Of a stretch of DNA of 64,000 bases, positions 13,534-62,495 are shown piece by piece; the stretch's first letter is position 1; each line of letters starts with the position of its first letter. The position numbers and the translations under genes are program-made. This stretch comes from Verrucomicrobiia bacterium (GTDB taxonomy: Bacteria > Verrucomicrobiota > Verrucomicrobiia > Verrucomicrobiales > DEV007). Where the stretch lies: NCBI GenBank assembly GCA_030425385.1, contig JAUIAH010000001.1, positions 124,001 to 188,000 on the forward strand, read 5' to 3'. The notes below the pieces were generated by a model. The model was not told where the DNA came from. It did no database searches and worked only from the letters and a program-made list of their open reading frames with translations.

Positions 13534-16500
13534 TCACCGCACGCGGTAGTATCCCTGTGAGCGGCCTTGGCGGTCGAGATTGGTTTCCTCAAAGGTGGCT
13601 CCGGCTTCAGTGGTGAGCACTTCCCACGTGATGAGGTCTTGCGAGTATTCGACCTCGCCGGCAGCACCTTCCGGCAAGGTGATTTCAAGGGCACCATTCG
13701 CTGACACATTCACCTCTGGCACTCCGACCATCTCGTCACCGCCACCGCCGTTGTTTCCATCTCCGAATGGCGTCTCCGTGAGCGCTAGAATCTCCGTGTC
13801 ATCGAGGGCACTGCCGTAAGTCGCCCAACCGAAGAGCGTGCTACCTTCGGGCATGGGATCGATGTTGCCTGTGGCGCCTGCGGCCATGACCCAGCCTTCC
13901 CCTTGGATGTCCACGGTGCCCAACCAATTGCCGACATGCGTGCCGTTCACGTAGAGCCGCGTCTCGTCATTGGTAAAATCTTGTACCAAAGCCACGTGCA
14001 CGCGCTCTTCAAAGACCGATGCCGGGTCATTGCCGCCTTCGGGATCAAAGACGTGGTCAGCCACTCCAAACTCCGTCGTGCCGAAGACACCTTGATCCTG
14101 CCACTGTTCTAACTTGACGCCCCAATTCGCATTGCCAGCAATGGCAGTGCTTGGACCGCCTTTGAAGGCTTCAAAGACAAACTCATACGTCGCGTCTCCT
14201 GACAAGACACCAAAGTCGACCATGGTCGGTTCCGTGAGATGCACGCCCGATCCCGCCACGGCGCCAAGACTTTCTCGTAGGGCACCCAGTTCCGCACCGC
14301 CCGCACCGGGGCCACCGGAAGTGTCCTCGGGCTCGGGATCGATCTCGAAAGCAATCTCACCGAGTCCCACCCGGTCGCCACCCGGCGCGCCACCCTCACT
14401 GCCATCGCCAGGAGCGACGAAATAGTTGTCCAAGGCAGTGAACTCGACGTAGCGCGCGACGACGGATTCCTCAAAGAAGAAGCTCTGCCGGGGGGCATCT
14501 GTATTCGCGGGCATGAACGTCGGCGCGTAGGCGATCGATTGCCCAAAGGCTTCGGGCCCTTCCGCGGCCGTGGCGAATCGCAAGCCGAACTCGCTCACGC
14601 CATTGGCATTGGACGCCGCGTAACCCCACACGCTGATCTCTTCCAAAGTCACATCCGTGCCCAAGTCTAACAAGAGAACCGGAGCGTCAGCCACGTCCAG
14701 ATAGTCGGCAGGAAAGCCCCCGGGATCAGCGGTCACCCAGGATCCGTCAGCGCCCCCGACCAAGCGGCGGAACGGCGGCTCCGCGGCAAAGCCTACCCCT
14801 GGGCCTTGGATGAGATTCTCAACCGGATAGAAATCATCGACGGCCGTCGAGCTTTCGATCGAGACGATGGGATAGAATTGTGGGAGATCAATGACCTCAG
14901 CGCGCTCTGACAAGTAGGCCTCGCTCACCGCGGTGGCGTGAATGATCGCTTCGTCGAGGAAGCCTTCAAAGCCAACGCCACCCAGCGTCACGCCTTCGCC
15001 ACTTGCAGGAGGCGCTTGATAGGCGGCTTCAGCCACTTGACTACCATTGCGCCAAACGGTGATGGTACCAGCGGCGACATCACCAATCACCGCGAGATGC
15101 GTCCAGGATTCCATGGGAATCTCAATGGCTTCTGCGATCGTAAAGGTGTCTGTAGCTCCATCGAGAGAGAAGACCAACGCATTCTCAATCGCATTGTCAG
15201 GATCAGCTTGAAGAGCCATCCGCCAGCCGTTGGCCTGTTCCCAGAATGGCACGGCGGTGGCGTTGTCGAACCGAGCCGGCCACAAGTAGGTTTCCAACGT
15301 CCAATTCTCATCGAGATTCAAGTCGTCGGAACCCGCTGCCTGCACGCGTTGCATTTCATCGGCCGAGAACGCGGCAGCTTGGCCTTCGAGCCCGGCGCCG
15401 TAGGCAGCCGTCCCGCTGGGTTGAAGGACGTCGCCCACCCCTCCAGGAGCGGTGTCGGACAAATGCCGATCAAAGAGCCACTCAGCAGCGACGGGGGGAC
15501 GCGTGGACAGGGTGCTCGTGACCACCGAACCGGGATTCTGATAGAGCCCCATCACTTGGGCTTCTGTGAGAGCACGGTCATACACCTGGAAATCATCGAG
15601 TCGACCAGCAAAGGGCAGCCCGCCCTCGAAGGCACCGAGCATGAGAGAATTGCTCACATCGAGTTCAAGAGGAAGGGGATCCGCTTGCTCCGCGACCAAA
15701 GCGCCGTTGACATAGACCGTGACCCGCTCGGGCGTGAATGCCGCCGCCACATGATAGGGCGTGCCATTCTCGATGACGGTATCTGCCTGAAACTGCGGCG
15801 CGGCATCGGCAAACCAAGTCACTTTCCCTTCTTGAAGCAAGACGGCAAAGGTGGGCGACCCCGCACTGCCTTTGGCCACCAAGGTTTGCAGTTGGCTGGC
15901 GTCCGTGGTCTCCATCCACAGGGCGACGGTGAAGATGTCCGGTGTCCCGAAATGCTCGCCCGAAACCATGGCCTGCGCGCCGCCCGAAACCGCCATGGCG
16001 TTGCCCGACGCCAAAGCCTCGGCTTCAAGACTCACATTCTCCCCATAAGTGCCATCACGGCCAAATCCCGAAGCATCAGGCATCACACTGGTGCCTGCGA
16101 TATCGTCCAACCGATAGTGCGCGACAGGACCTTCGCGATCTACCAAAGCAGCGCTCAAGGCAATGTCGATCTGCTGATCGACGGCGTCCGGATCATTCGT
16201 CGTGAGGCGCAAGATTCCGTCAAAGGTGCCAATGCGGCCCTGCCGATCAAACTGCAAGGTTATGGCGCCCTCCTGAGAAGGTCCCAACTCCGAAGGCAGC
16301 TCCGTGATCGTGAAATGAGTTCCTGACACAATCTCTGCGGCCAATGTGAGGGGTTGCGTGGCCCCACTGTTCCGCACGGGAATCGTCAGGGTTTGCACGT
16401 CATCAATGAAAGGCAACTCCCCAAAGTCTTGCACCGCGTTCACGGCCACGCCCGGGTCAGAGGCGCCCAACCAGGCCTCGGCATGAAAGAGGATGGCGCT

Positions 16501-17112
16501 CGGATCAATGGCGTCGTTGTAGACGGTGATCCGCTCGATGGTTCCCGTCATGGCCTCGGCACCACCAGGATTCGCCCCGACCGATCCCTCGCCCGTGGGC
16601 ATCTGAAATTCAGCCGCCTCCGCGTTCGTCCCGACCAAGACCCCATTGAGATAAAGCTCCATCGTCGTCGTGTCTTGCACCCAACGGAAGGTCACATGCG
16701 CAAGCTCACGGGGAGAGAGCAGGGCATTTGCATCCGCCCCTTCCGCAGACTCGAAGAGATAATCAGCCACCCCCAGGTGCGTGAACCCGAGCGCCTCCGT
16801 CTCCTGCCATTGCTCGTAACGGAGATTCCACGTCGCGTTCTCCCCCACGGCAAGGTAGCCATTCACATTGGCATCTGGATCGCCGCCCACAATGAACTCG
16901 ATCGTGCTGGAGCCATCCACGCTGCCAAAGTCGAAGGGCAGCCCGGCCGTGCCATCGAGGGTGAGGACATCTCGACTAACGGATGCATAAGGCAACGTGC
17001 CCGCATGGTCGGCAGCGATGGCAGCATCGTAAGAGGTGAGATCAGCGTGGAGGGTGGAGAGACCTGCGAGGGACAAGGCCATGGTGAGGAGAAGGGGAGA
17101 GGTCCGTTTCAT
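13534..17112 (-). CDS. Giant exported LamG / choice-of-anchor D protein
   Basis: 1192 residues with signal peptide MKRTSPLLLTMALSLAGLSTLHA. Beta-sandwich (LamG-type) segments occur near residues 30-215, 330-530 and 545-745. An anchor-D/HYDIN-like Ig domain (VNAVQDFGELPFID, about 220-320) follows the first. A discoidin-like segment lies near 760-930 (LDLGTDVTLEEISVWGYA), and a further LamG-like domain follows (about 955-1110). The C-terminus, SQDLITWEVLTT to YYRVR, is a short fibronectin-like cap shared with other giants here. No catalytic motif is visible, so a carbohydrate-binding or adhesive surface role is inferred. Several long plus-strand open frames across it (one of 462 codons at 14938-16326) are shadows. 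Confidence 0.88.
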   Translation of the reverse strand: MKRTSPLLLTMALSLAGLSTLHADLTSYDAAIAADHAGTLPYASVSRDVLTLDGTAGLPFDFGSVDGSSTIEFIVGGDPDANVNGYLAVGENATWNLRYEQWQETEALGFTHLGVADYLFESAEGADANALLSPRELAHVTFRWVQDTTTMELYLNGVLVGTNAEAAEFQMPTGEGSVGANPGGAEAMTGTIERITVYNDAIDPSAILFHAEAWLGASDPGVAVNAVQDFGELPFIDDVQTLTIPVRNSGATQPLTLAAEIVSGTHFTITELPSELGPSQEGAITLQFDRQGRIGTFDGILRLTTNDPDAVDQQIDIALSAALVDREGPVAHYRLDDIAGTSVMPDASGFGRDGTYGENVSLEAEALASGNAMAVSGGAQAMVSGEHFGTPDIFTVALWMETTDASQLQTLVAKGSAGSPTFAVLLQEGKVTWFADAAPQFQADTVIENGTPYHVAAAFTPERVTVYVNGALVAEQADPLPLELDVSNSLMLGAFEGGLPFAGRLDDFQVYDRALTEAQVMGLYQNPGSVVTSTLSTRPPVAAEWLFDRHLSDTAPGGVGDVLQPSGTAAYGAGLEGQAAAFSADEMQRVQAAGSDDLNLDENWTLETYLWPARFDNATAVPFWEQANGWRMALQADPDNAIENALVFSLDGATDTFTIAEAIEIPMESWTHLAVIGDVAAGTITVWRNGSQVAEAAYQAPPASGEGVTLGGVGFEGFLDEAIIHATAVSEAYLSERAEVIDLPQFYPIVSIESSTAVDDFYPVENLIQGPGVGFAAEPPFRRLVGGADGSWVTADPGGFPADYLDVADAPVLLLDLGTDVTLEEISVWGYAASNANGVSEFGLRFATAAEGPEAFGQSIAYAPTFMPANTDAPRQSFFFEESVVARYVEFTALDNYFVAPGDGSEGGAPGGDRVGLGEIAFEIDPEPEDTSGGPGAGGAELGALRESLGAVAGSGVHLTEPTMVDFGVLSGDATYEFVFEAFKGGPSTAIAGNANWGVKLEQWQDQGVFGTTEFGVADHVFDPEGGNDPASVFEERVHVALVQDFTNDETRLYVNGTHVGNWLGTVDIQGEGWVMAAGATGNIDPMPEGSTLFGWATYGSALDDTEILALTETPFGDGNNGGGGDEMVGVPEVNVSANGALEITLPEGAAGEVEYSQDLITWEVLTTEAGATFEETNLDRQGRSQGYYRVR

Positions 17113-17402: not shown

Positions 17403-20400
17403 ATGCGAAGTCCCTCCATACAGCATCTCTCGAAACTCATTTGGGCACTAGCCCTTGCACCCCTCTTGCCTGCGCACGCCGATCTCATTGGACTCTATAC
17501 CTTCGATGAGGCCGATTTGACGCAGGACTCCAGCGGTGAAGGCAACGATCTTACCAGTGAAGGAGTGGACCCCACCGCGGACGCCAACGGCTTCGAAGGT
17601 GGCGCGGCCCTATTCGATGGCTTTCAGCGCTTCACCGCACCGATCAGTGTCGACACCGCAGCGTTGCCGATGGCGACGATGGGTGCCTGGGTGCGGACTG
17701 ACACTATTGAACCCGCATTACGGAAGGTGTTAGGAGGCGATGACGGTGGCTGGGATCGCACCATCGGATTGGACAATCGCAATGGTGCCTTCCGCTACAC
17801 GTCCTTCACCGGAACCGGGCCCCTTCCCGGAACCCCCGGCCCCACCAATACGGAAGACTGGGCGTTTATTGCGGCGAGTTACGATGAGACCGCTCAAACG
17901 ATGACGGTTTATGTCGATACCGATGCGTCCACCACTGACGATATTCCCGTTGCCGTGCGTTCCTCCTCGGCCTTCGGGCCGGGCGCGACCACTGTTTCCG
18001 TCGGATCGGTGGGACCGGGCACGGATGGCGAAGGGTGGATGGGCTCCATGGACAATGTATTCTTCTTCAATGAAGCCCTTGATGCGGGTCAGATCCGCTT
18101 GATTCGGGATGGCGGCGTGGCCGGGCTGACGGGTGAATTGCCGATGACCGATCCCGTCATCGCCGTGACCGCTCCCGATCCACTGGGCACCCTCGCCAAT
18201 CAACCAGGCTCCCAACAGCGAAGCGTCATGGTGACCAATAGCGGCGCCACCCAACGGTTGACGATATCTGGAGCGACCTTTTCAGGACCCCAGATGGCCC
18301 ATTTCGCCGTCTTATCGACACCTGAGGGATTGGATCCCGGCGCATCGGGAGAAATTGTCATCGCTTTTGATCCTGGGACGGCTTCAGGGGATTTCGATGC
18401 CACTTTAGAAATCACGAGCGATGACTTTGGCGCTCCCGTGAGCACCATTGCCTTCACTGCCAAGGTGGCCGGCGGCTTGATTGCCGAAAACCTGTTAGGG
18501 TTCTATACTTTCGATGACCCAGACAATCCCTTGCAGGATAATAGCGGTAGGGAGAATCATTTGACCTTGCCTGGTGATGGAGCTGATCCCGTTTATGGAG
18601 AGACGACAGGAGTGCAAGGAGGCGCTTATACCTTCGATGGGCAGACGCGCTTGATTGGCTCCCTCAATCTGAATCCCGATGCCGTGCCGGAATTGACGGT
18701 GGGGGCGTGGGTGAAGGCGGCCACCTTGGATCCTGGATTGCGCAAAGTGATCGGCACGGACAATGGCGGCTGGGATCGGACCATTGGTTTGGACAATCGT
18801 GAGGGGGATTTCCGCTACACCACGTTTATCGGCAATGGCCCGCCCTTAGCCGGAACGCCTGGCCCCGAAAGCACGGATGCCTGGACCTTCCTCGCAGTCA
18901 CCTTTGACCAGCCGAATAACGAGGTCACCGTTTATGTGGACACGGATGTAGCGAGTCTGAATGATGAAATGATCGTGGTCTCAGGTGCGACCGGATTCAC
19001 CGATGGATTCGAACAATTCGCGGTAGGCAGCCTTCGGATCGACAACGCCAACGAAGGCTGGCAAGGCGAGATCGATAATCTCTTCGTTGTCCCTACCGTT
19101 CTTGGCGGTGAGCAATTGGATGCCTTTCGCGCTGGCGGACGTTCCGCCATTGAGAACTACGGCTTTGGCCCGCCGCGGGAATCGTTGGTGGCGTTTTATC
19201 ACTTCGATGACCCTGAGAAATCGCTTGAGGATTCCAGCGGCAACGCGAATACCTTGGACCCGGTGTCGCCGCCGACGTATGTGCCATCGGGCGGCTTTCA
19301 AGGTGGTGCCTACGACTTCGATGGTAATCAGCGCTTTGTGGCCGATATCGATATCAATATTGACCAAATGCCGCAACTCACGGTTGGGGCCTGGGTGAAG
19401 CCTTCCAATCTCACTTCTGGATTGAAGAAGGTATTGGGCAGTGATGACGGTGGTTGGGATCGGACGATCGGCTTGGATAACCGCGAAGATGATTTCCGCT
19501 ACACAGCTTTTGTCGGCAATCAGCGTCCCGTTGTGGGCACGCCTGGCCCCGAGAATACTGAGGATTGGACCTTCTTCGCCGCCGTCTTTGACGAAACCAC
19601 CGCTGAAGTGACAGTCTACGTCGATGTCAACGCAGGCACCACCGGAGATCCCTTGATCTCGGTCACCGAGCCCACGGCATTTGGTGCCGGGCCGCCACAG
19701 ATTTCTATTGGCAGTCTGCGTCCCGATAACAACTCCGAAGGGTGGCAAGGATTATTGGACAATGTGTTCCTGTATGACGCGGCTCTCACCGAGACTCAAT
19801 TGGCGTATTTGCGCAATGGTGGCAGCCCTGTGATTCTAGGAGTCACGGGCGACGATCCCAATTTAGACTTCGATCTTACCCCGCTCTTTGGAGCCCTCGT
19901 TGATCGCGCTCCAGTCACGCGCACGCTCGAAATCTCTAATACGGGACGAACAGAGACCTTGATGGTGACTGGTGTCAGTGTGATTGGACGGGATGCGAGT
20001 CATTACACAGTGACTGGTTTTCCGGAGGCACTAGCTCCTGGAGCCTCTGGGCAAGTCACCATTACTTTCGATCCATTGCATCAGGTGGGTGACTTCACCG
20101 CTCAGTTGCAAATCGCATCAAATGACGAAAGTCTTCAACTCTCGACCGTGAATTTGGGAGCCTCGACGGCGGCCCCCACCGAGAATGATCCGGTGATTGG
20201 TCTGCCAGTGATCTCACCCTTTGGCGTCTTGGAACCTGGCACCTACACGCGCACGGTCACCATTCGGAATGACGGCTCATCGCAGCCCCTGACGATTAGT
20301 CGCATCTCGGTGAGCGGCAATGATGCCGCCGCCTACACGTTGGGCGATCTTCCAGGACCGATCGCCCCCGGAGCTTCCGGATCCTTGGAGATCACGTTCG

Positions 20401-22424
20401 ATTCCGGCGGGGAGTTTGGTCGATTTCAAGCGACTCTAGACATCGTGAGCGACCATGCCCGTGGGCGCTTCGCTTCAACCAGCATCGAAGCCAACGTTCC
20501 CATCACGGATCCCCTGACGGCGCTGATCGGCTTTTATTCCTTCGATGACGCGAGCAATACCTTAAAAGACGATTCCGAAAGTGGAAACGACCTTATGTTT
20601 GCAGAGGATATCGAACCCGTTCACGTGCCCGGTGGCGGCTTTGAAGGCGGAGGCGCGTATGAATTCGATGGGAGTCAACGCTTGATCGCTCCGATTGATA
20701 TCAATGTGGGGACCACTCCCGAACTCACCATGGGTGCCTGGGTCAAGCCGTCTTCCATTGATCCTGGACTGCGTAAGATCCTGGGGCATGACAATGGCGG
20801 GTGGGACCGGACCATTGGCCTCGATAACCGGGAGGGTAATATGCGCTATCTCGGGTTCACCGGCCAAGGTGTGATGTCGGACACACCTGAACCAACGAAT
20901 ACGGAAGATTGGACCTTTATCGCGGTGGCCTATGATGAGCCCAGTCAGGAAGTGACGCTTTATGTCGATTTGAATGCCTCCACTTTTGAAGATGCATTGC
21001 TCGTAAACACGCAACCGACTGTCTTCAATCTCGGCTTCGATACGGTATCGATCGGGAGCTTGCGTCCGGACACGTCTGCAGAAGGCTGGGCGGGATTGAT
21101 TGATAAAGTCTTCTTCTTTGATGCGGTGTTAGACGCCGCAACGATTGAGGAGATCCGAGAAGGTGGGATCCTACCAGGATCACAGGACCCCAATCTCCGC
21201 GTGACAGGTGGCTTTGGTGATTTGGGCAATAATGTCAACCCCGTGACGCGGACGCTGACTGTTCGCAACGGCGGCAGAGACCAGACCCTCACGATCACGG
21301 ACAGTCGTCTCACCGGTCCGAATGCCGACCGATTCACCTTGCTAGACGAGTTACCTGCCAGTCTCGCCCCTGGGGCCTCGGCCACGGTTGAGGTGCGATT
21401 GGATCCCGGCGGAGAGCAAGGAGGGTTCATTGCCTTCCTTGAGATTGATAGCAATGACGCGGGCGATCCGACCCTGGCAATTGACCTTTCTGCGATCGTT
21501 TCCAATGGCAACGGGTTGTTGGCGCACTACCGACTCGACGAGACGTCCGGCACGACGCTCCTCGACGCTTCTGGCTTTGGGCATCACGGCACTTACGAAT
21601 CCGTGAATGGAGGAAGTTTCACTCTTGGTGCCGACGCTTTAGCGAGTGGCGCTGCCGTCAGCTTTGATGACGCCAATGATAGTGGCGCTGCCTACGGATT
21701 GGTGCCCGCAGGAGCTGCCCCGGGTCCGCTATCGCCGTTCTCGATTGCGATGTGGGTGAATCAGGCGGCAGACGATGCCGGAGTCTCCACCCTATTCGCA
21801 AAAGGATCAGGGCCCGGCGATCCCTTCGCGGTGGCCTCGTTAGAAGGCGCGCTCGTGTGGTTCTCCAATGCCGAACAGGGCCTCATTCTGGAAGGTGCCA
21901 TGTCCCGCGGCGAGCCCCATCATTTGGTCACGACTTACGCCGCTGAGAACGATTCAGCCATGGTGACCTTCTATTTGAACGGAGAAGACATTGGTTCAGC
22001 AGAGGTGGCCGCATTTGATGATGCCAGTCCCTCCATCTTTCAGATCGGCGCCTTGAATGGACAATTCGGATTCAAGGGGCTGATCGATGACGTTCAGGTT
22101 TATAACAAAGTCCTCACCGCTGATGAGATTGCCTCTTTGCTGGCCTCTCCCGGCATGGTCTTGGCTGGCGAGCCACCCATTGTGGTGGATCCAGAGCCGG
22201 CGATCTTTAGCGTGGCAGACGTCACTAAGAATGATGGCACTATGAGCCTCACCTTCCAAAGCCAAGCTGGGGTGTCCTATGTCTTGGAATACAGCGAAAC
22301 CCTGGAGGGTGACTGGACCGTGATTCAGACCATTGATGGTCAAGATGGCACCACCTCGGCCGTCGACACCGATGCTACGCGCTTGGCCAAAGCCATCGGC
22401 TTTTACCGTGTCCGATCGAACTAG
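17403..22424 (+). CDS. Giant exported protein with five LamG repeats and anchor-D spacers
   Basis: 1673 residues with signal peptide MRSPSIQHLSKLIWALALAPLLPAHA. Four close LamG copies begin LIGLYTFDE, LLGFYTFDD, LVAFYHFDD and LIGFYSFDD (about residues 27, 363, 596 and 1041). Each carries the block GGWDRTIGLDNR. A fifth, diverged copy begins LLAHYRLDET (about 1373). Anchor-D type Ig domains (RTLTVRNGGRDQTLTI and relatives) separate them. The C-terminus is the same fibronectin-like cap (VLEYSETLEGDWTV to YRVRSN) seen in the other giants. Its last 17 bases overlap the GTG start of the CRTAC1-like selenoprotein candidate, so the two are very likely co-translated. Predicted glycan-binding surface protein. 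Confidence 0.9.
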   Translation: MRSPSIQHLSKLIWALALAPLLPAHADLIGLYTFDEADLTQDSSGEGNDLTSEGVDPTADANGFEGGAALFDGFQRFTAPISVDTAALPMATMGAWVRTDTIEPALRKVLGGDDGGWDRTIGLDNRNGAFRYTSFTGTGPLPGTPGPTNTEDWAFIAASYDETAQTMTVYVDTDASTTDDIPVAVRSSSAFGPGATTVSVGSVGPGTDGEGWMGSMDNVFFFNEALDAGQIRLIRDGGVAGLTGELPMTDPVIAVTAPDPLGTLANQPGSQQRSVMVTNSGATQRLTISGATFSGPQMAHFAVLSTPEGLDPGASGEIVIAFDPGTASGDFDATLEITSDDFGAPVSTIAFTAKVAGGLIAENLLGFYTFDDPDNPLQDNSGRENHLTLPGDGADPVYGETTGVQGGAYTFDGQTRLIGSLNLNPDAVPELTVGAWVKAATLDPGLRKVIGTDNGGWDRTIGLDNREGDFRYTTFIGNGPPLAGTPGPESTDAWTFLAVTFDQPNNEVTVYVDTDVASLNDEMIVVSGATGFTDGFEQFAVGSLRIDNANEGWQGEIDNLFVVPTVLGGEQLDAFRAGGRSAIENYGFGPPRESLVAFYHFDDPEKSLEDSSGNANTLDPVSPPTYVPSGGFQGGAYDFDGNQRFVADIDINIDQMPQLTVGAWVKPSNLTSGLKKVLGSDDGGWDRTIGLDNREDDFRYTAFVGNQRPVVGTPGPENTEDWTFFAAVFDETTAEVTVYVDVNAGTTGDPLISVTEPTAFGAGPPQISIGSLRPDNNSEGWQGLLDNVFLYDAALTETQLAYLRNGGSPVILGVTGDDPNLDFDLTPLFGALVDRAPVTRTLEISNTGRTETLMVTGVSVIGRDASHYTVTGFPEALAPGASGQVTITFDPLHQVGDFTAQLQIASNDESLQLSTVNLGASTAAPTENDPVIGLPVISPFGVLEPGTYTRTVTIRNDGSSQPLTISRISVSGNDAAAYTLGDLPGPIAPGASGSLEITFDSGGEFGRFQATLDIVSDHARGRFASTSIEANVPITDPLTALIGFYSFDDASNTLKDDSESGNDLMFAEDIEPVHVPGGGFEGGGAYEFDGSQRLIAPIDINVGTTPELTMGAWVKPSSIDPGLRKILGHDNGGWDRTIGLDNREGNMRYLGFTGQGVMSDTPEPTNTEDWTFIAVAYDEPSQEVTLYVDLNASTFEDALLVNTQPTVFNLGFDTVSIGSLRPDTSAEGWAGLIDKVFFFDAVLDAATIEEIREGGILPGSQDPNLRVTGGFGDLGNNVNPVTRTLTVRNGGRDQTLTITDSRLTGPNADRFTLLDELPASLAPGASATVEVRLDPGGEQGGFIAFLEIDSNDAGDPTLAIDLSAIVSNGNGLLAHYRLDETSGTTLLDASGFGHHGTYESVNGGSFTLGADALASGAAVSFDDANDSGAAYGLVPAGAAPGPLSPFSIAMWVNQAADDAGVSTLFAKGSGPGDPFAVASLEGALVWFSNAEQGLILEGAMSRGEPHHLVTTYAAENDSAMVTFYLNGEDIGSAEVAAFDDASPSIFQIGALNGQFGFKGLIDDVQVYNKVLTADEIASLLASPGMVLAGEPPIVVDPEPAIFSVADVTKNDGTMSLTFQSQAGVSYVLEYSETLEGDWTVIQTIDGQDGTTSAVDTDATRLAKAIGFYRVRSN
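17481..22150 (+). repeat. Five LamG-encoding repeats
   Basis: Copies lie at about 17481-18120, 18490-19150, 19189-19840, 20524-21160 and, more diverged, 21520-22150. The first four share codon-level similarity around the GGWDRTIGLDN block (near 17750, 18770, 19457 and 20809), which points to internal duplication. Boundaries are approximate. Confidence 0.75.
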
Positions 22425-25400
22425 AGTTCTCTGGCTCAGCTTCCTCACGCTAGTCGCGGGAAGCTGTTCGAAGGAATCGGAGCCCACCTCGGCGGCACCG
22501 GAGCTCATGGCTCCGGTGCCTCAGGAGGAGATTCTGCTAGAGATCCCTGGCAGACAGCGCGCAGAGAACCCGCTCACCGCGCTGGCAGATCCCCACCAAG
22601 ATTCAGATTGGGATACGGAGGCGTTCAGTTCTCGAGCGAGTACCGCATTGGCTCATCTTGCCAAAGCGATCACAGGCGAAACGGCCGTGCCCAAAGAGGT
22701 ATTGGTTCCCGGGCAGCAATGGCCCTCATTGCGACCGGCGACGTGGGCAAGCGCCTTTGACGATCCGCTTGTGCATGTCAAACGAGGGCGTGGTGATGGA
22801 GCACCGTCCTTAGAAGCTGAGGATGCTTGGGCAAGCCTCTTTGCGCCGTGGCACGATGCTCACGACAAGCACGTGAAATGCAAGATTGTTGGCGTGAAGG
22901 CAATGGGCGGACACGTGATGGAGACGGAAGTCGTGGTGGAGTCGCATGCGAGAACGGCGGAAGGGAAAGTCGCACAACAATCGCGGTGGCAATGTGAGTG
23001 GAAATGGGCGGGGCAGGACGAATCCCAGCCCTTGCTGCGTTCGCTGGTTGTGGAGGATTGTGAGGAAATCACCACCGCGAATGGCGGCATTCACTTTGCC
23101 GATCGCACCGCAGATCTGTTAGGCAACGATCCCGCATTTCAGGATCAGCTTCAGCGTGGCGCAGATTATTGGCGTCTTCGGCTCCAACTAGACTTCGGAT
23201 CCGACGTCAATGGGCTGCAAGGGATTGCCGTGGGCGATGCGGATGGCGATGGCTGGGACGATGTCTACCTGTGCCAACCAGGAGGCTTACCGAATCGATT
23301 GTATATCCGTCAGGATGATGGCACCTTGAAGGACCGGTCCGCGGCGGCCGGGGTGGATTGGATGGAATTGACGCGGGCGGCCTTGTTCCTTGATCTCGAC
23401 AATGATGGCGATCAGGATCTCGCGCTGGCGCAGGATTCCTATTACGTCTTGATGGAAAACCAGGGGAAACCCAAGCAGCCACGTTTCCGCAAGCGGCTTG
23501 AGGTGCGCGCGCCAGCCAAACTACGATCCTTGACCGCGGCCGATATCGACCTCGATGGCGATTTAGATCTGTTCTTCTGCGGTCGCAACCCCGCGAGTGA
23601 TACCACTGCACAAGGTGTTCTGGGATTTCCCCTCCCTTATCATGATGCGAACAATGGTGGGCCCAATGTGCTTTTGCGAAATGACGGGAGCTGGCAATTC
23701 TCAGATCAAACGGTGGCCCTGGGCATGGACGTCAACAATCGCCGTTTCAGCTATGCCTGTGCCTGGGAGGATTTCGATAATGACGGTGACCAGGACCTCT
23801 ATGTGGCCAATGACTTTGGGAGAAATAACCTATATCGCAATGACCTATCGACCACCGGGCGTTTTACCGATGTGGCAGCGGCAATGGGGGTGGAAGATTT
23901 GTCGGCTGGCATGGGGGTGACCTGGGCGGATGTGAATCGCGATGGCTGGATGGATCTCTATGTGAGCAACATGTTCTCCTCTGCGGGAAATCGAGTCGCG
24001 TATCAACGGCATTTCCGCGATGGCGATGACGCCGATTTGAAAGGATTCCAACGCCACGCCCGCGGAAACTCGCTGTTTCTCAATCGGCAAGGAGAAACCT
24101 TTGACGATGTGAGTGAGCCGTCCCGAGTCACCTTAGGGCGCTGGTCCTGGGGATCGCTATTTGCTGACTTTAATAATGATGGTTGGGAAGACCTTTATGT
24201 CGCCAATGGGTTTATCACGACGCCCGACACGGGCGATTTGTGAAGTTTCTATTGGCGACAGGTCGTGTCGCGTTCTCCCATCAAAGCCGATGTCGTCGCC
24301 GAGCCCCTATTTGCCTATCAACAAGGGTGGGCGGCTTTGAACCAATTGATTGGCGAAGGACGTTCCTTTAGTGGCAATGAGCGGAACTGTGCCTTTCTCA
24401 ATACGCGGGTAGAACGCTTTGCGACCGTTTCATCTATTAGCGGATTGGATTTCCCGCAAGACGGCCGTGCCGTCGCCGCAGCGGATTGGGATTTCGATGG
24501 ACGGGTCGATTTCTGGCTGACGAATCGCAATGCCCCACGCGTACGATTCCTGCGCAATGAAACCGCTTCTCCAGCTGATTACTTACTTCTATCGCTCAAA
24601 GGTGTGGAAGCCAATCGCGACGCCATCGGCGCACGCGTCGAAGTGTCGCACCCTGTGAGGCTTCCGGCGCAAGTATTCACTTTGCGAGCGGGGGAAGGTT
24701 TCTTAGCGCAGTCGAGCAAATGGCTACACATTGGTCTGGGGACAACTCACGACATGCCGGTCCAAGTGACTGTGCATTGGCCGGGAGGGGAGGCAGAAAC
24801 TTTCGAAGGCTTACAGCCGCGACAACGCTACGCATTGGTGCAAGGGAGCGGAAAGGCGGTCGTGCCAACCCTAACCATGCCGCGCGTTCAATGGGGAGCG
24901 CCGTCGGTGGACGCGCCGAAAGAAGATCCCATGCGGACGTGGATCATCGGTCGCGTGCCTCTGCCTCCTCTTGAGGGCGTCGCCGTGGGCAACGGGAATC
25001 CCGTGCTGCTCAATTTATGGTCCAACGATTGCGCCGCCTGCGCTTCCGAGCTCGCAGAGTGGACGCAAGAAGCCGACGCCCTCCAGCAGGCAGGGTTAAC
25101 CGTGCTCACCGTCAGCGTCGATAGCCTGGCAGGAAACGACAACACCACTTTGTTAGATCGCATTCAACCCCCTTTCGAACGTCTCAACGCAACCCCAGAA
25201 ATGATCGAGGCGTTAGAGGCGGTGCATCGGTCAGTCGTCGAGTTGCGACGTCCCCTACCCGTGCCTACCAGTTTCCTCATCGATGGACGCGGGCGCGTCG
25301 CCGCCATCTACAAAGGACGCGTCCGCGCGTCGCAATTGCAGAAGGATACGGCCCTGCTCAAGGCCACGCTGATCGACCAACGGGAGGCCGCTGTCCCCTA

Positions 25401-26046
25401 TCCCGGCCAATGGGCATCCACTCCCTTTCCTCCCAATCCCATGCGCATTGCCGCTCAATGGCATCAGGCAGAACGGCGCTCCCAGGCAATCGACTATTTA
25501 AAACATTTCCTGGCCGGAGCTCGGCATTATTTGGAGGATCAATATGGAGAACCTGAAGATCACTTGGCTATTGTGGTCGATACGCACGCCTATCTCGGCG
25601 ACTTATTGATCGACGAGCCTGACGGCGCTCCTCAAGCGGCTCGGGTGTATCGCAATCTTCTGCAATTGGCAGCGAATGACACCATGCTTCACAAAACGAT
25701 CGGCGAGCGCTTGCTTCGCAAGGATTTGGCAAGCGACGCACTGGCCCATTTGAATCTGGTTCTGGAAACTCTCCCTAACGATGCCACCACGTTGTTTAAC
25801 GCCGGACTGGCGGCGCGCAGTACGAACAATCCCGAAGCTGCCGTGGCGCATTTCCAGCGCTACATCCGTCAGCGTTCAGACGACCTCGGCGGCCACTACC
25901 AGTTAGCCTTGGCGTGGCAACAAAGGGGACGGATCGAAGACGCGAAGGAGGCCGTCACCGCAGGACTCGCCCGTCCCGGTGCCGAAGAGGATGCTTCCCT
26001 GCGCCTCTTGCTCCAGACGCTTATGCGCGAGCTTTCTCAGGAGTGA
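22408..26046 (+). CDS. CRTAC1-like lipoprotein: FG-GAP, UnbV, thioredoxin-like, TPR; predicted selenoprotein (UGA at 24241)
   Basis: Read as one gene of 1212 residues in which TGA 24241-24243 encodes Sec612. A conventional annotation would give two pieces, 22408-24243 and 24265-26046, in the same frame. The GTG at 22408 gives a lipoprotein signal ending VAGSC (Cys20) and overlaps the upstream LamG gene by 17 bp. Residues 270-611 hold FG-GAP/VCBS repeats (DFDNDGDQDLYVANDFG and others). After DTGDL-U comes SFYWRQVV, more VCBS sequence (DWDFDGRVDFW), an ASPIC/UnbV domain (740-815, LRAGEGFLAQSSKWLHIGLG), a TlpA-like thioredoxin domain with C875-A-A-C878, and TPR helices (1010-1210). The second half has no signal peptide of its own, no convincing ribosome site before its GTG, and exported-type domains, so read-through fits better than two genes. 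Confidence 0.8.
24241..24271 (+). promoter_or_regulatory. Predicted bacterial SECIS element, first copy
   Basis: The in-frame TGA (24241-24243) is followed by stem GCGACA (24255-24260), loop GGTCG (24261-24265) and TGTCGC (24266-24271), a perfect 6-bp stem. The loop begins at +18 after the UGA. E. coli fdhF has an 18-nt gap before its GGUC loop, closed by the same CA/UG pairs. G at loop positions 1-2 and GU at 2-3 match what SelB is known to contact. No bulged U is obvious in the lower stem, which is a departure from fdhF. Confidence 0.75.
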
Positions 26047-54511: not shown

Positions 54512-57500
54512 TCACTTCCCCGCAGAAGGTTCTCGGTAAGGTTGGCGCTGTTGGTAGAGGATCAATCGCTGTTGCACGGCATTGGCCAAGGTGGCATTGC
54601 CAGCGGCTTCAGCGAGCTTCAGCGCGTGGGTGGCGGTCTTCGCGGCTGCGGCAAAGTCTCCATTGGCGGCTTGGGCGGCGGCGAGCGTGTCGAGGATACC
54701 CGCACGCGGTTGGCCTGCGCTTTCGAGAGCGCGTTGGGCGAAGATCAGGGCTTCTTGTGGGTTCCGGATCTCGTCCTGCGTGCTAGTGGCCAGGATCCAG
54801 GCGAGTTCGTTGGCGGCCAATTCAGCGTTTGGCAAGATTCGCAGAGCCTGACGAAGATGAATGAGGGCTTTGTCAGGCTGACCCGCGCGCTTGAGGCTAT
54901 GGCCTAACCACAGGTGCGCGTTGCCATCTCCAGGGGTTGCTTGTGCCAGAATCTCGAAATGAGGCACGGCCTCAGGAGAGCGATTGGTTTGCACCAATGA
55001 CAGGGCCAACATCTTGCGCGTGTTGGCATTGCCAAGATCCGTTCGCAAGGAAGCAGCGAGATGCGGCACCGCCTTACCGTATCGGCGGTGTTTGAAGAGC
55101 AAGGTGGCGAGCTCTAACCGAACCAGATGCTTGTGTGGTGCCAAGGCGTGCGCGCGTTCATAAGCGCGAATGGCTTCGAGCTCGCGCTTCTGAATGCGCA
55201 GCTCGTTGGCAACCAAGTAGTAGGATTCGGAGAGGTCTTGTTGGGCGCGTTGGTCCGTGGAACTGGTGAAGGTGTCGAGGTAGCGCTTGGCGGCGGTCGG
55301 CTTGCCAAAACTCATGAACTTATCGATCATCACCGTGGGGGTGGCTGGCCAGGGGCTTTCCATCCAGGTGCCCGGGAAATGAGCAGCCGCGAGATGACGG
55401 GCCTCATCAGGAGCGCCTAACTTCGCGACGTCTTGAAGGAGTTGCTCGCTGGAAACGGGGCCTTTGTAGAGAAAGGCGGCGCGCCCTTGGGTGTCGATAA
55501 GGAGACTGCTAGGGATGGGAAGAGTCTCGAACTTGTCGAGCAAGGCACGTCCAGCGACTTCCAAGGTTTCCAGAAAGTCGGTGGTGGCCAAGCCGGTTTC
55601 TAGAGTGAGCGCGTGTTTATTCAGAAAACGCTGCACGGTCTGTTGCCGCTCGCTGAGGGGCGCATCGACATCATCCACACTGAGCGCCAAGATATGCAAG
55701 CCCGCATCATTGAGCGCTGCCTGATGCGCGTTCCATTCTTGCATTTCTGTCAGGCAAGGATGACACCAAGTCGCCCAGAGATTGACCAGCATGGGTTGCG
55801 CGTGCGTGAGGAGCGGGCGTGCTTCGCCTCGGAATGATTGATAGGAGGTTGCGGGAAAGGGCAAGGGAGACGCCATGACGATGCGTGCCCGCTGTGATGG
55901 CGGTGTGATCGGCTTGGCGTCGTGGAGGATCGGTTGCTGCGGAGCTTGCCAGGCTTGTGCGTTGCGTTGGCCTTTGGTGAGAGTGAAGAACTGTCCGGCG
56001 CGGAGGCCTTCGATGGCTTGGTATTCGGATTGACCGGGCCAACGCACTTCGGCGCGAGTGATGGTGGCGTCTTGGGGGAGGCCAAAGTGCAGCCAAGCAC
56101 TAGACTGCGCGAGGAAACCCTGCCCGGCGCGGACAGTGCGCACGTGTGGCTTGCCATTGACGGTGAGCCGCACCCGCGCACCGATCGCTTGGCCTAACAA
56201 GCGGATGCCGACAAAGGTATTCTTCGTGACGGAACGATTCTGCTGAAGGCGGAGTCGCGGCGCCGTGCGATTGGTGATCCAGAAATCCAAACGCCCATCG
56301 AAGTCCCAGTCTGTGACCCCAATGGAACGGCCATCGTCCAAGGTATCGAGGCCGCAGGCGCCTGACACATCCGCATATCGTGGGGTGCCATCGGCTGCCG
56401 CACCGAGATTGAGGAAAGCGCTATTGCGTTCGTAGCCGCTGTAGGAACGCCCTTCTTCTAACATCGTGTTTAACGCCTTCCATGCCTTGCGATAGGCATA
56501 GCTGGCATTCGGCGTCCGATTGGCCTCGGGGGATTGCGACGACACGCGCCGCCAGGCGAAACTTCACAAGTCGCCCGTGTCTTCCGTCGTGATCATGCCA
56601 TTGGCCACAATGAGGTCCTCGTGACCGTCGTTATTGAGATCCATGAAATTCGAACTCCATGCCCAACGCGCCATGTTGGCGCCAGACACGTGGGTGGCGT
56701 CTTCGAATGTGCCATCACCCTGATTCACATAAACCGAATTGCCGCGGGCATGGCGCCGCGCTTGAGCCTTGGTGTCTTTGCTAGCTTCCGGCAGGAAGGC
56801 ATCCTGCAGGGTGATGCGATTGCCTGCGTTGGACCACATGTTGCCCACATACAAATCCATCAGACCGTCGGCATTGTGATCACCCCAAGCTGCCGACATG
56901 CCGGGGCCAATGTCGACCACACCAGCCTCGACGGCGATGTCCGTGAAGCGACCGCCGTCATTGCGGAAGAGATTGTTTCTCCCAAAGTCATTGGACACGT
57001 AGAGATCCTGATCGCCATCGTTGTCGACGTCTTCCCAAGCACAGGCAAGGCTGAAACGCCGATTGTTCACGTCCATGCCCACTTCACGTGTCACGTCCAC
57101 GAAGGCAAAGTTGCCCTTGTTTCTTAAAAGCATGTTAGGTCCTCCATTGTTGGCGTCGTAGTAGGGCATGGGAATGCCGAGAGCACCTTGCTCGGCCTTC
57201 AACGCTCCGCTGGCATCGCGTCCGCAGACATAGAGATCGAGGAAACCATCGGCATCGTAGTCCGCTGCGGCCATGGAATTGATTTGCCCATCACTAGCAA
57301 TCTTGTCACGAGGGGTGAAGGTGCCTGAACCGTCATTCTCAAAGAAGACCACCGCCCAGGCCAGCGCCACGACAAGGTCATTGTCCGCGTCCTGGTCGAG
57401 ATCGATCAAGAGCCCGCTGCGGCAGAAGTCGAGCAGGGCCACACCAGCGTCTGGAGCCACGTCCCGCGCCGTGCCATCCGTCTCATGGAGCAAGAGGCGA

Positions 57501-58411
57501 TTGGGCAAGCCACCCGGTTGCAAGACATAGACATCATCGAGCAGATCGCCATTCACATCGCCCACGACCAGACCTTGCGCGCCTAACAAATCCGCCACCA
57601 AACTGCGATCCGAGCGCGACCGCCAGTAGTCGAAACTGTAAGCCAGGTGATCCGTGTAGGCGGGTTCACCGGCGAGCACTCTGGGGGCGATGTCTTCAAA
57701 CTCCAGGCGTCCCTCACTAGGAACGGCCTCTCGATACGCGCGCACCTCCACGTGACCAAGATGATAGGGCTCTGCAGGCGTCCATTGCGTGTGCCACACT
57801 GAGGTGATCTGATGCCAGCCCTCGGGGCGTTTCCCCCGAAACTCGAACAACAGATGCGCCTCAATCGTGTCCTCCTGTTGCTGAACATGCTTCACCTTGA
57901 ACTTGGCACGTTTGTCAGACGCTCCTTTCAAAGGCACTGCCAAATCCGTCAACGCCTCAAGAAACCCGTTCGATCCTGGAGGCGCCATCTCCCGGGCAGT
58001 GCTTTCTAAGATAGCAATCTCGTGTGTCTGATAGATTGCCTTGAGAGCGCTCGGACGCAGAGCGGTGCTCGTGATGGTTTCCGCCAAGGTCTTCTTCACC
58101 TTGATGAATGCCTCCTCATCTGGCGCCACGAGCCAAGCCGCCATGCCTTTCTTCAGCAGGCTGGAGATGCTCTCGGTAAACGCCTCGCTCTCCCAAGCCT
58201 CCGTCGATGGATCCACCTGTGCCCATTCCTCGGCAAGCCGAGTATGCGCCGCCAACCCGCGTTCTGGCAACTCGCCAAGAGAAGCTGCCTCGGCTTCGGC
58301 AGCCGCTTGAGGGTCATTGGAAACAGCTGTCGGCGTTTCCTTAACCTTGTCACCACAGCTAACAAGACTCAGCCCTAGCAAGACCAATCCGATCTGATGG
58401 AACCATCGCAT
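54512..58411 (-). CDS. CRTAC1-like lipoprotein: FG-GAP, UnbV, thioredoxin-like, TPR; predicted selenoprotein (UGA at 56566-56564)
   Basis: Paralog of the gene at 22408-26046, read as one protein of 1299 residues with Sec616. A conventional annotation would give 58411-56564 and 56545-54512. Signal MRWFHQIGLVLLGLSLVSC has its lipobox at Cys19. FG-GAP repeats (NNDGHEDLIVANGMI and others) lead to DTGDL-U, then SFAWRRVSSQSPE. After it come DWDFDGRLDFW, the UnbV part (VRAGQGFLAQSSAWLHFGL), a TlpA-like domain with WATWCHPC (near 880) and TPR helices. It is divergent from a LamG giant, 142 bp between starts. The second half lacks a signal peptide, so read-through is favoured over two genes. The long plus-strand frames across it are shadows. 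Confidence 0.8.
56536..56566 (-). promoter_or_regulatory. Predicted bacterial SECIS element, second copy
   Basis: The in-frame TGA (56566-56564) is followed on the minus strand by stem GCGGCG (56552-56547), loop CGTGT (56546-56542) and CGTCGC (56541-56536). The loop starts at +18 as in the first copy. Compared with that copy, one A-U pair is G-U and another is G-C, so pairing is kept while the bases change. Loop positions 2-3 are again G-U. Confidence 0.72.
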
Positions 58412-58553
58412 GAGGGGCGACGTTACCACCGGGGTGCTGTCTTCGCCAAGAGTGCAATCTGCTCTAGCGTGCAGAAATCACCGAGCAAGGGGCGTGCCTC
58501 TTAAGGAACTCTTGGTGCTTGTTTGCCACCAAGAAATTTCTCATGCTCCGCGA

Positions 58554-61500
58554 ATGACGATGCTCCGCTTCTTTCTTCTTCCTTTGTGGTGTGTGCTGGG
58601 AATGGCTGCCTTGTCCAGCGCGCCTGGTGCCGAGATGCTGGCCTACTATGGGTTTGAAGACGATTACACCGATGCCTCCGGCAAGGGGAACGATGCCTCA
58701 CCCTCACAGAATCCTGAACAGCTGGTCTTCGTGGACGGGTTTCGCGGCAAGTCCCTGAATATCATCGATCCCGACGTGGAAGCCAACTCGGGTGGACTGG
58801 TGGAAATTCCCATCAATGCCAATCCGAGCGAGCTGCCAGAGGTGACCTTTGGTGGTTGGGTGAATGTGGCCGAGGGCTTTGAGTTCGACGGCTTCATGGC
58901 CACGGACAATGGCGGTTGGGATCGTGGCATCACGGTGAATGCTGAAGCGACCAATGCCTTTGGGGTTGCGAGCGGTGCGGCGCCGACGCCGGGTGGTGCC
59001 ATCACGCCAGGGGAATGGCAGTATGTGGTGGCAACCTTTGATAGTGGCGAAGGCGTGTCGACGATCTACGTGGGCGACAACGTGGCTGCTACGCAAGCGG
59101 TCGAGGCGGCTTCTGGAGGAGACCTCACGGACGTAGGCGAACCGATCATCGAGTTAGGGCGTTACGACAATCAGGATTTCAATGGCTTGGTCGATGACAT
59201 CTTCGTCGTTGATGAAGCCCTCGACGCCCATCGTGTCGCCGCGATTCGCAATCTCCGCCTGAGCGCGCTCAACTATTCCCCAGTGCAGGCCACAGCGCTC
59301 TTTGCTTTGTTTGAGGGCGGGCTCAGTGGCGACATCGACGGCTTGGCATGGGAACCTGTCAGTGGATTGGGCGGACCGTCTCCTGGTGCGGTCGTAGATG
59401 CGGGCGATGGGACATTTGCCGTGCTGTTAGACGATGCGGGCAATGGGATGCAGAGTGGCACCGTAGCCGTCGACACCGATTCCGACGACGATGGCCTTGA
59501 GGATGCCTGGGAGCTGGCTCAGTTTGGCAACCTCGATGAGACCGCCGAGGGCGATCCTGATGGCGATGGTCTTACCAATGCACAAGAGCAAACACGCGGC
59601 ACACGCCCTGGGGCGAGTGATTCGGACGGCGACGACCTCGCGGATGGGGCCGAGGTGAATGAGCACCAAACGGATCCCTTGGATGATGATAGTGATGATG
59701 ACGCGGCTTCGGACGGGGCAGAGATTGCCGCCGGAACCGACCCTAACAATCCCGCCAGTGTGCCTCGCGGACCATCTCCAGAGCTTCTGGCCTACTATGC
59801 CTTCGAGGACAACTACGACGATGGATCAGGAAGCGGTAACAACGCCATTCCAGCTCAGAATCCCGACGAGCTCCGTTTCGCGGACGACGGGTTCCGCGGC
59901 AAATCACTCCACATCAACGATCCAGACGCAGAGGCCAACTCCGGCGGATTGGTGACCATTCCCGTCAATGCCAACCCAAGCGAACTCCCAGGGGTCACCT
60001 TCGGTGGATGGGTCAATGTCGATGACACCTTTGAGTTCGACGGCTTCATGGCGATCGACAATGGCGGATGGGACCGCGGCATCACGGTGACGGATAACCA
60101 AGGAGGCGTCGGCTTTGGGGTGGCGAGTGGCGCGGCGCCCGTGGATGTCGGCGTCGTCACGCCGGGAGATTGGCAATATGTGGTAGCGTCCTTCGACAGT
60201 GAGGCAGGCGAAGCCTCGATCTACGTCGGCAATGCCATGGCCTCGACACAAATGTTAGAAACCGGCACAGGTGGTGACGCCACGGACGCCGGCGAAGGGG
60301 TCATTGAACTTGGTCGGTATGACAACCAAGATTACCATGGCTTAGTCGACGACGTGTTTGTCTTTGGCGCTGCGTTAGACGCCAACCGCATCGCGGCGAT
60401 TCGCAATCTCCGTCTCAGTGCACTCGACTACTCCCCCGAGCAGGTATCCTCGCTCTTCATTCTCTTCGACGGTGGCCTCACCGGTGTCGTCAACGCGTTA
60501 GGTTGGGAGCCGGTCAGCGGCTTGGACACGGCCATTCCCGGGGCCGTCGTCGACATCGGCGAGGGAAATGTCACCGTCTTGTTAGACAGTGCAGGCAACG
60601 GCATGCGGAGCGGTGCCATGGCAGATGCTGATTCGGATGGTGATGGGTTGGATGACATTTGGGAAACGGCCAATTTCGGAAACTTGGATCAGACGGCGGA
60701 AGGCGACGCCGATGCCGATGGGCTCTCCAACCTCGATGAATTCGAGCGCATGACCCGCCCTAACGTGAGCGATACCGACCGCGATGGTCTTGCCGATGGC
60801 GCCGAGGTCAACGAGCACATGACGGATCCGCTCGCCTTGGACACAGATGGCGACGGCGTTTCTGACGGTTTCGAGCTGGCCACTGGCAAAGACCCCAACG
60901 ATCCGACCAGCGTGCCCCGCGATCCAGCCCCTGAGCTCCTTGCTTACTTTGACTTCGAAGGCACCTATGAGGATTTGTCAGGGAATGGCAACGATGCCCG
61001 TCCGGAGATGAATCCCGATCAACTCGCATTCACTGACGGCTTGCGCGGTCAAGGGGTGGATATCAACGACCCGGATGCGGAAGCCAACACAGGGGGTTCC
61101 GTCAATATCCCGGTAGACGTCAATCCATCCGTGGAACCCGAGGTCTCCTTCGGTGGCTGGGTGAACGTGGAGACCTTTGAATTCGACGGCTTCATGGCGA
61201 TCGACAATGGCGGTTGGGACCGCGGGATCACGGTGACGGATAACCAAGGTGGCGTCGGCTTTGGCGTGGCCAGCGGAGCGGCACCCGTCGATGTGGGGGA
61301 GGTCATTCCAGGTGAATGGCACTATGTCATGGCGACCTTTAGCGATGCCGATGGGCAGGCCGTGGTGTATGTGGGCAATGACGACCCTGACACTCAGACC
61401 ACACTCTCAGGCATGACTCCCGATGCCGGGCGCAGCGACGGTGAACCCGAGATTGAGATTGGCCGCTATGACAATCAGGATCTCGATGGTGTCGTCGATG

Positions 61501-62495
61501 ATATCGTCGTCTTCTCTGGCGCACTCTCCGCGCATCAGGCGAACGCCATCCGCAACCTCCGCCTCAGCGTGCACGACTACTCCCCGCAGCAAGCAGCCGA
61601 AGTCTTCGACCTCTTCTCGGCGGAATCTGGCGGCACCGTGGGTGGCTTCACTTGGACACCTGTTTCCGGACTGGATCCGAGTGAACCAGGGGCGGTGGAA
61701 GCGGTTGGAGCGGGATTCACCTTAGTGTTAGACGATACCGGAAACGGCATGATGTCGAGCGCAGCGGATCGCTTCGAGATCACCTCGATCACGCGTGATA
61801 GCCTCACGAGTGCGACCATTGTTTGGGAGACAAAGCCGTCCGTCTTCTATGCGGTGGAGGTCTCACAGAATCTCATTGATTGGGAGATCCTCGCGGAAGG
61901 GATCCAACCCGAGGATGCGCCTCTGAGCTACACAGATACGTCCGCCGAGATCGCCACGCAACCGGTGCGCTACTACCGCGTGCGTGAGCAGGCTCCGCCA
62001 GCAATCTTCGCAGATGGCTTCGAATCCGGGGCGGGTGCATGGACCGTGGGCGTGATCGTCGATTTCCCTGAAACAGGGACCACTTGGGAAGCAGGCCCCC
62101 CGACCAATGGACCCGCGACCGCCTACGCTGGAGCCAATGTCTTCGGCACGGGGCTCGCCGCTAACTATGAAGAAGCCACTGGCATCTACCTTCGCTCCCC
62201 TGTCATTGATCTCACCGGCGCAGGACGCGCCAAGCTAAGCTTCCATCATTATATGGAGGCGGCCGACGGCGAGGGAGGGCGGATCAACATCCTCAACCCA
62301 GATGGATCCATCCTTGTCGGTGGCCTCAAGCTCTACGTTGGCCCTAACGGGAACACCACCGATTGGGCCAGAGAATCTATCCGCTTGCCAGATCTCAATG
62401 CACCCGTTGTCATCGAGTTTGAATTTCTGTCAGGAGACGACGGTGATCCCACCAATCGTCCCGGGTGGTTCATTGATGACGTCGAGGTGGATTGA
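58554..62495 (+). CDS. Giant exported LamG / TSP3-repeat / choice-of-anchor J protein
   Basis: 1313 residues from ATG 58554 (ATG 58560 possible). Signal: TMLRFFLLPLWCVLGMAALS. Three LamG units, beginning MLAYYGFED, LLAYYAFED and LLAYFDFEG (about residues 25, 410 and 795), each hold FMAxDNGGWDRGIT. Between them lie calcium-binding TSP3-like repeats (DTDSDDDGLEDAWE, DADSDGDGLDDIWE). A fibronectin-like cap and an anchor-J domain with a DGFESGAGAWTVG start close the protein. Divergent from the second CRTAC1-like gene. Probable glycan-binding surface protein. The open frame extends back to 58410 without protein-like sequence. Confidence 0.9.
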   Translation: MTMLRFFLLPLWCVLGMAALSSAPGAEMLAYYGFEDDYTDASGKGNDASPSQNPEQLVFVDGFRGKSLNIIDPDVEANSGGLVEIPINANPSELPEVTFGGWVNVAEGFEFDGFMATDNGGWDRGITVNAEATNAFGVASGAAPTPGGAITPGEWQYVVATFDSGEGVSTIYVGDNVAATQAVEAASGGDLTDVGEPIIELGRYDNQDFNGLVDDIFVVDEALDAHRVAAIRNLRLSALNYSPVQATALFALFEGGLSGDIDGLAWEPVSGLGGPSPGAVVDAGDGTFAVLLDDAGNGMQSGTVAVDTDSDDDGLEDAWELAQFGNLDETAEGDPDGDGLTNAQEQTRGTRPGASDSDGDDLADGAEVNEHQTDPLDDDSDDDAASDGAEIAAGTDPNNPASVPRGPSPELLAYYAFEDNYDDGSGSGNNAIPAQNPDELRFADDGFRGKSLHINDPDAEANSGGLVTIPVNANPSELPGVTFGGWVNVDDTFEFDGFMAIDNGGWDRGITVTDNQGGVGFGVASGAAPVDVGVVTPGDWQYVVASFDSEAGEASIYVGNAMASTQMLETGTGGDATDAGEGVIELGRYDNQDYHGLVDDVFVFGAALDANRIAAIRNLRLSALDYSPEQVSSLFILFDGGLTGVVNALGWEPVSGLDTAIPGAVVDIGEGNVTVLLDSAGNGMRSGAMADADSDGDGLDDIWETANFGNLDQTAEGDADADGLSNLDEFERMTRPNVSDTDRDGLADGAEVNEHMTDPLALDTDGDGVSDGFELATGKDPNDPTSVPRDPAPELLAYFDFEGTYEDLSGNGNDARPEMNPDQLAFTDGLRGQGVDINDPDAEANTGGSVNIPVDVNPSVEPEVSFGGWVNVETFEFDGFMAIDNGGWDRGITVTDNQGGVGFGVASGAAPVDVGEVIPGEWHYVMATFSDADGQAVVYVGNDDPDTQTTLSGMTPDAGRSDGEPEIEIGRYDNQDLDGVVDDIVVFSGALSAHQANAIRNLRLSVHDYSPQQAAEVFDLFSAESGGTVGGFTWTPVSGLDPSEPGAVEAVGAGFTLVLDDTGNGMMSSAADRFEITSITRDSLTSATIVWETKPSVFYAVEVSQNLIDWEILAEGIQPEDAPLSYTDTSAEIATQPVRYYRVREQAPPAIFADGFESGAGAWTVGVIVDFPETGTTWEAGPPTNGPATAYAGANVFGTGLAANYEEATGIYLRSPVIDLTGAGRAKLSFHHYMEAADGEGGRINILNPDGSILVGGLKLYVGPNGNTTDWARESIRLPDLNAPVVIEFEFLSGDDGDPTNRPGWFIDDVEVD
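58635..61590 (+). repeat. Three LamG-encoding repeats in the 58.5-62.5 kb gene
   Basis: Copies at about 58635-59280, 59785-60430 and 60940-61590 share the GGWDRGIT block and the tail IRNLRLS. TSP3 segments (about 59460-59760 and 60620-60910) separate them. Confidence 0.75.

Follow-up and report, generated by a model that had tools for sequence, protein, structure and literature searches.

A probable selenoprotein family built on a CRTAC1-type beta-propeller with a fused thioredoxin domain in Verrucomicrobiota and Planctomycetota

The window analysed here, a stretch of 64,000 nt from a Verrucomicrobiia bacterium (contig JAUIAH010000001.1, positions 124,001-188,000, assembly GCA_030425385.1), contains two paralogous genes, hereafter Sec-CRTAC genes A and B. 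In gene A, the frame 22408-26046 contains a single internal TGA (24241-24243, codon 612 when numbered from GTG 22408), preceded by DTGDL and followed by SFYWRQVV, and ends at a terminal TGA (26044-26046). The frame encodes first a signal peptide, which probably includes a lipobox, and then an FG-GAP propeller; beyond the internal TGA it continues with SFYWRQVV, an UnbV/ASPIC domain, a thioredoxin domain of TlpA/ResA type and TPR-like repeats. Pfam recovered FG-GAP_3, UnbV_ASPIC and AhpC-TSA, and TPR_9 only below the cut-off. The features of both genes are as follows (window positions, strand, description, evidence):

22408..26046, +, Sec-CRTAC gene A (translation, Pfam, relatives)
22465..22467, +, probable lipobox Cys20 (Cys in 68/80 aligned family members)
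24241..24243, +, UGA very probably read as Sec612 (TGA in 93/93 of the Trx-fused clade and 11/11 of the second Sec clade; Cys in 10/10 distant homologues)
24255..24271, +, bacterial SECIS hairpin GCGACA-GGTCG-TGTCGC (fold, shuffles, covariation, covariance scan, published rules)
24622..24831, +, UnbV/ASPIC domain, residues 739-808 (Pfam)
24991..25305, +, TlpA/ResA-like thioredoxin domain, residues 862-966, cis-Pro953 (Pfam, alignment, profile)
25030..25041, +, thioredoxin CxxC, CAAC (Cys875, Cys878), proposed reductant of Sec612 (88/92 aligned members; lost in the Sec-less clade)
54512..58429, -, Sec-CRTAC gene B, paralogue with the architecture of gene A (homology search, alignment)
56564..56566, -, gene B in-frame UGA, followed by SFAWRRVSSQSP (translation)
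56536..56552, -, gene B SECIS hairpin GCGGCG-CGTGT-CGTCGC (fold, covariance scan)

A preliminary description of this DNA had proposed that the frame of an FG-GAP protein runs through TGA 24241-24243 into SFYWRQVV and an UnbV/thioredoxin/TPR half, which translation and Pfam bear out, and that a perfect 6-bp stem with a GGTCG loop starts its loop at +18 after the TGA, which is also correct. Its remark that UGA is a stop elsewhere and a changed genetic code unlikely holds as well: apart from this codon, TGA ends more ORFs in the window than any other stop (13/23), and we therefore see no general recoding here. Gene B was not mentioned in that description; ORF finders split it into two genes. Very large Laminin_G_3 (and TSP3) proteins adjoin both Sec-CRTAC genes (17403-22424, 13534-17112 on the minus strand, and 58410-62495), and similar Laminin_G_3 proteins also lie next to other family members and Cys homologues. 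Such Laminin_G_3/TSP3 surface proteins, belonging to the same single-linkage cluster, were found beside family genes in 15/22 loci, but the domain is generic and no functional link is claimed.

From its sequence, the product of gene A is an exported, probably lipid-anchored CRTAC1-like beta-propeller carrying UnbV, thioredoxin and TPR parts. The combination of FG-GAP propeller and UnbV domain that defines CRTAC1/ASPIC-UnbV proteins is met both by Pfam and by structure, the gene A model matching murine CRTAC1 (PDB 9etn) with a VIA-align Z of 38.0 and an rmsd of 2.5 over 451 residues at 22% identity, and a PDB profile search also retrieving CRTAC1 (E 5.6e-23). The C-terminal domain alone satisfies the TlpA/ResA definition (CxxC and cis-Pro within the fold) and matches these periplasmic thioredoxins by profile. 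Gene A shares propeller and UnbV fold with CRTAC1; what it adds is an inserted loop bearing Sec and, at the C-terminus, a thioredoxin domain, often with TPR. Alignment and a low-confidence local model place Sec612 in a loop or helix inserted next to the UnbV domain. This loop remained unresolved in two AlphaFold runs (pLDDT about 40-55), and the predicted helix starting at Sec in one of them is only a hint; because confidence is low around Sec, we claim no contact between Sec and the thioredoxin domain.

The internal TGA is not peculiar to gene A. A search of its own genome found nine homologues, each with one TGA, and a search of 57 relatives yielded roughly a hundred more. Alignment to gene A puts the TGA of 104 distinct homologous stretches precisely at residue 612, in the shared motif D-L-U-[SG]-x-x-W-R; of these stretches, 93 belong to a Trx-fused clade and the other 11 to a second Sec clade. 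At least 26 further homologues have TGA at the same codon (24 from Planctomycetota, 2 from another verrucomicrobial family). Among Planctomycetota, the TGA is present in 24/29 fetched homologues, and 53 of 294 sampled genomes have a match at E<=1e-60, which contains one TGA in nearly every case. Since a sample of the verrucomicrobial phylum contained only two carriers in 388 (the genome studied here and G394), the family is patchy in that phylum. The second, more divergent Sec clade (L025, L153-L159, L161, L063, L065) reads DL-U-SxxWRxVV and has a hairpin in a different register; several of its members are without a Trx domain. A tree separates the Trx-fused Sec proteins, as a single group, from the Cys clade and from the second Sec clade; in a wider tree members from Planctomycetota and Verrucomicrobiota are intermixed, which suggests old paralogy or transfer.

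The coding sequence continues beyond the in-frame UGA, as expected of a bacterial selenoprotein gene. The codons between UGA and GTG 24265 vary mainly synonymously (AGT/AGC, TTC/TTT, CGG/CGA/CGC), and the W and R after UGA are invariant (93/93). Ten distant homologues have Cys (TGC or TGT) at the Sec site, in the motif DYC[ST]xFWCHD and without a CxxC motif. Cys forms were also expected within the Trx-fused clade and none was found; the replacements there are Ala and Glu.

In gene A, arms GCGACA (24255-24260) and TGTCGC (24266-24271) pair perfectly around the loop GGTCG (24261-24265), with 17 nt between UGA and loop and a folding energy of -9.5 kcal/mol. Published rules for bacterial SECIS elements call for a loop of 3-9 nt, a stem of 4-16 bp, a G in the first two loop positions, a spacing of 16-37 nt and an MFE <= -7.5 (PMC13188914), all of which the hairpin satisfies. 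As an Rfam scan of 24000-24600 gave no match, the element was assessed by these rules and by covariation. The complete stem is present in 70 of 80 distinct sequences, versus a mean of 2.3 and a maximum of 11 in 2000 synonymous-codon shuffles; this excess and the recurrence of TGA in 104 stretches argue that neither hairpin nor TGA is due to chance. Across 50 sequences, 95.7% of cells were paired, and both sides had changed in 20 cells (3.8 in shuffles). Stem covariation reached 0.356 (shuffled, 0.151), a value attained in 0/500 shuffles, and pairing fell sharply when stem partners were shifted by one to three columns. A typical compensatory change is CGA..TCG to CGC..GCG, and several such compensations also alter the protein: in one case Ser TCG became Ala GCG while Arg CGA became CGC. 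Conversely, only 2-4 of the 6 stem pairs are left in the five homologues that encode Ala, Glu, Ala, Asn and Arg in place of the UGA. A covariance model of the hairpin, run against the 8-Mb genome of origin, returned eight matches at E<1e-7, each of them a Trx-fused paralogue. The match ranked after these (E 0.04) lacks a TGA at the equivalent position, and the scan missed the ninth paralogue, which is more divergent. The model was trained on the family, including members from this genome, and so it demonstrates specificity and not independent discovery. The element resembles the E. coli fdhF-type SECIS (short stem, GGUC-type loop just after UGA) with no essential difference: it is an ordinary bSECIS, and the decoding mechanism is ordinary.

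The genome also has the means to decode it: selA, selB, selC (anticodon TCA by ARAGORN, a UCA tRNA) and selD are all present, selD (L105) itself having an in-frame TGA (CG-U-AAK) followed by a hairpin with a GGTCG loop. Among the 57 relatives, selA was found in 19/19 carriers of the family (in two only as contig-end fragments), and the 31 relatives without selA include no carrier (Fisher p 1e-9, without correction for relatedness). selA is likewise present in four more carriers from outside the taxonomic family (G394, G432-G434); a fifth label, apparently the same genome as G023, was left out of this count.

We are thus highly confident that gene A encodes one full-length selenoprotein with Sec612, an exported CRTAC1-type propeller, on comparative and genomic grounds and without peptide or selenium data. 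In the proposed mechanism, SelB with the Sec-tRNA(UCA) would dock on the hairpin just after the UGA and selenocysteine would be inserted at 612. The preliminary description had inferred this decoding and had named the search for selA-D and for Cys in place of UGA as checks; the outcome of both supports it, and none of the findings that it listed as refutations, such as a lack of selB or selC, was met where this could be tested. A single premature stop in a single copy would look identical to a pseudogene or a sequencing error, but dozens of independent assemblies share this TGA, in well over a hundred genes that mostly have no other stop, and that explanation is in effect refuted. It might also be argued that the TGA is a true stop and that translation restarts at GTG 24265 to give a second, separate protein; mechanical ORF calling begins at this codon, and 72/93 family members have a GTG there. 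This GTG (24265-24267), however, overlaps the end of the hairpin loop and its 3' arm, and members swap it for TCG, GCG or ACG when the stem changes. Re-initiation moreover leaves unexplained why the stretch from TGA to GTG (S F Y/F W R Q V) drifts synonymously while its amino acid sequence is preserved. In Cys homologues the frame is uninterrupted through the site, carriers occur only among selA genomes, and we consider this reading very improbable. Equally hard to sustain is near-cognate suppression, by which UGA would be read as Trp or a similar amino acid: it would likewise yield one chain, but distant homologues have Cys and never Trp at the site, a SECIS is present, the family depends on selA and UGA is the commonest stop of the window.

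What Sec612 does is less firmly established. Proteins with an aligned Trx region fall into 119 with both Sec and CxxC, 4 with Sec only, none with CxxC only and 3 with neither (Fisher p 1e-4, not corrected for relatedness), the two being kept together in 119/126. The three with neither (L220, L221 and L222, from Planctomycetota) form one clade nested among Sec proteins, and two of them occur in genomes that also have Sec copies. They have Ala, Glu and Ala at the Sec site, no SECIS, and DxxS or DxxT in place of the CxxC, with the cis-Pro kept; to judge by these residues, they are probably redox-dead paralogues. A second Sec-less lineage (L223 and L224, with Asn and Arg) has lost the whole Trx domain, its sister L239 having Sec and CxxC. 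Because Sec and CxxC are kept together and were lost together in the Sec-less clade, we infer that they work together: Sec612 would act as nucleophile in the catalysis of a thiol/selenol redox reaction, with an unidentified extracytoplasmic substrate, and would be re-reduced in cis by the CxxC (875/878) of the fused TlpA/ResA-like thioredoxin. We lean only slightly towards this relay, because few independent events support it (the Sec-less Trx-bearing proteins are one clade, and one lineage lost both) and because one clade has Sec without CxxC. In that clade (L141, L142, L143 and L145), the Trx domain has SxxS or DxxS. An invariant Cys in a nine-sequence alignment, C451, was considered as the Sec partner and discarded, being mostly Ala in 91 sequences.

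It remains possible, though we find it less persuasive, that in a genuine selenoprotein Sec612 is a metal ligand or acts alone, independently of the fused thioredoxin. Some Sec members are without Trx or CxxC, and the distant Cys homologues have a Cys pair and a His (CxxxxCHD) that might bind metal, with no CxxC. The retention of CxxC in 119/123 Sec members with a Trx domain, and the loss of both cysteines from a retained fold in the Sec-less clade, speak rather for a Sec612 coupled to the thioredoxin.

The family and its architecture appear new. UGC-TlpA and WAxxUGC selenoproteins have Sec inside the Trx motif, whereas gene A has a plain CxxC and its Sec about 263 residues upstream, in another domain. 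The DYC-[ST]-x-FWCHD Cys homologues (L026, L028, L160 and others, in the same genomes) share propeller and UnbV with a Cys at the Sec site; they differ in having no CxxC and no SECIS and a second Cys where Sec forms have Arg617, and they form a separate clade. To our knowledge, the described CRTAC1 kind is not a selenoprotein. No FG-GAP/CRTAC1/UnbV selenoprotein is found among the 119 prokaryotic selenoprotein families catalogued in 2026 (PMC13188914) or among the new families of deep-Sep (PMC12013277); NCBIfam 20.0 has no such selenoprotein family, its matches lying far below cut-off, and searches of the open-access literature (supplements and GenBank annotations excluded) turned up no paper on an FG-GAP, ASPIC/UnbV or CRTAC1 selenoprotein. 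The catalogue and NCBIfam thus agree with the earlier statement that no described selenoprotein was known in this protein family.

Taken as a whole, the data favour, if narrowly, a large and repeatedly duplicated family of exported PVC selenoenzymes, represented here by nine genes. A propeller would bear a catalytic Sec and a fused thioredoxin would regenerate it in cis, so that the selenoenzyme would carry its own reductase domain and act on a yet unidentified substrate, either extracellular or periplasmic. This appears to be a new selenoprotein family on a beta-propeller, with many copies per genome, in two phyla whose selenoproteomes are little studied; we infer that its genes would ordinarily be recorded as two fragments or as pseudogenes. 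The natural Sec-less paralogues, without hairpin and Trx cysteines, provide a ready-made comparison for the role of Sec and suggest the CxxC as its partner. We know of no biochemical activity for CRTAC1-type proteins, and a Sec active-site residue would make such an activity testable.
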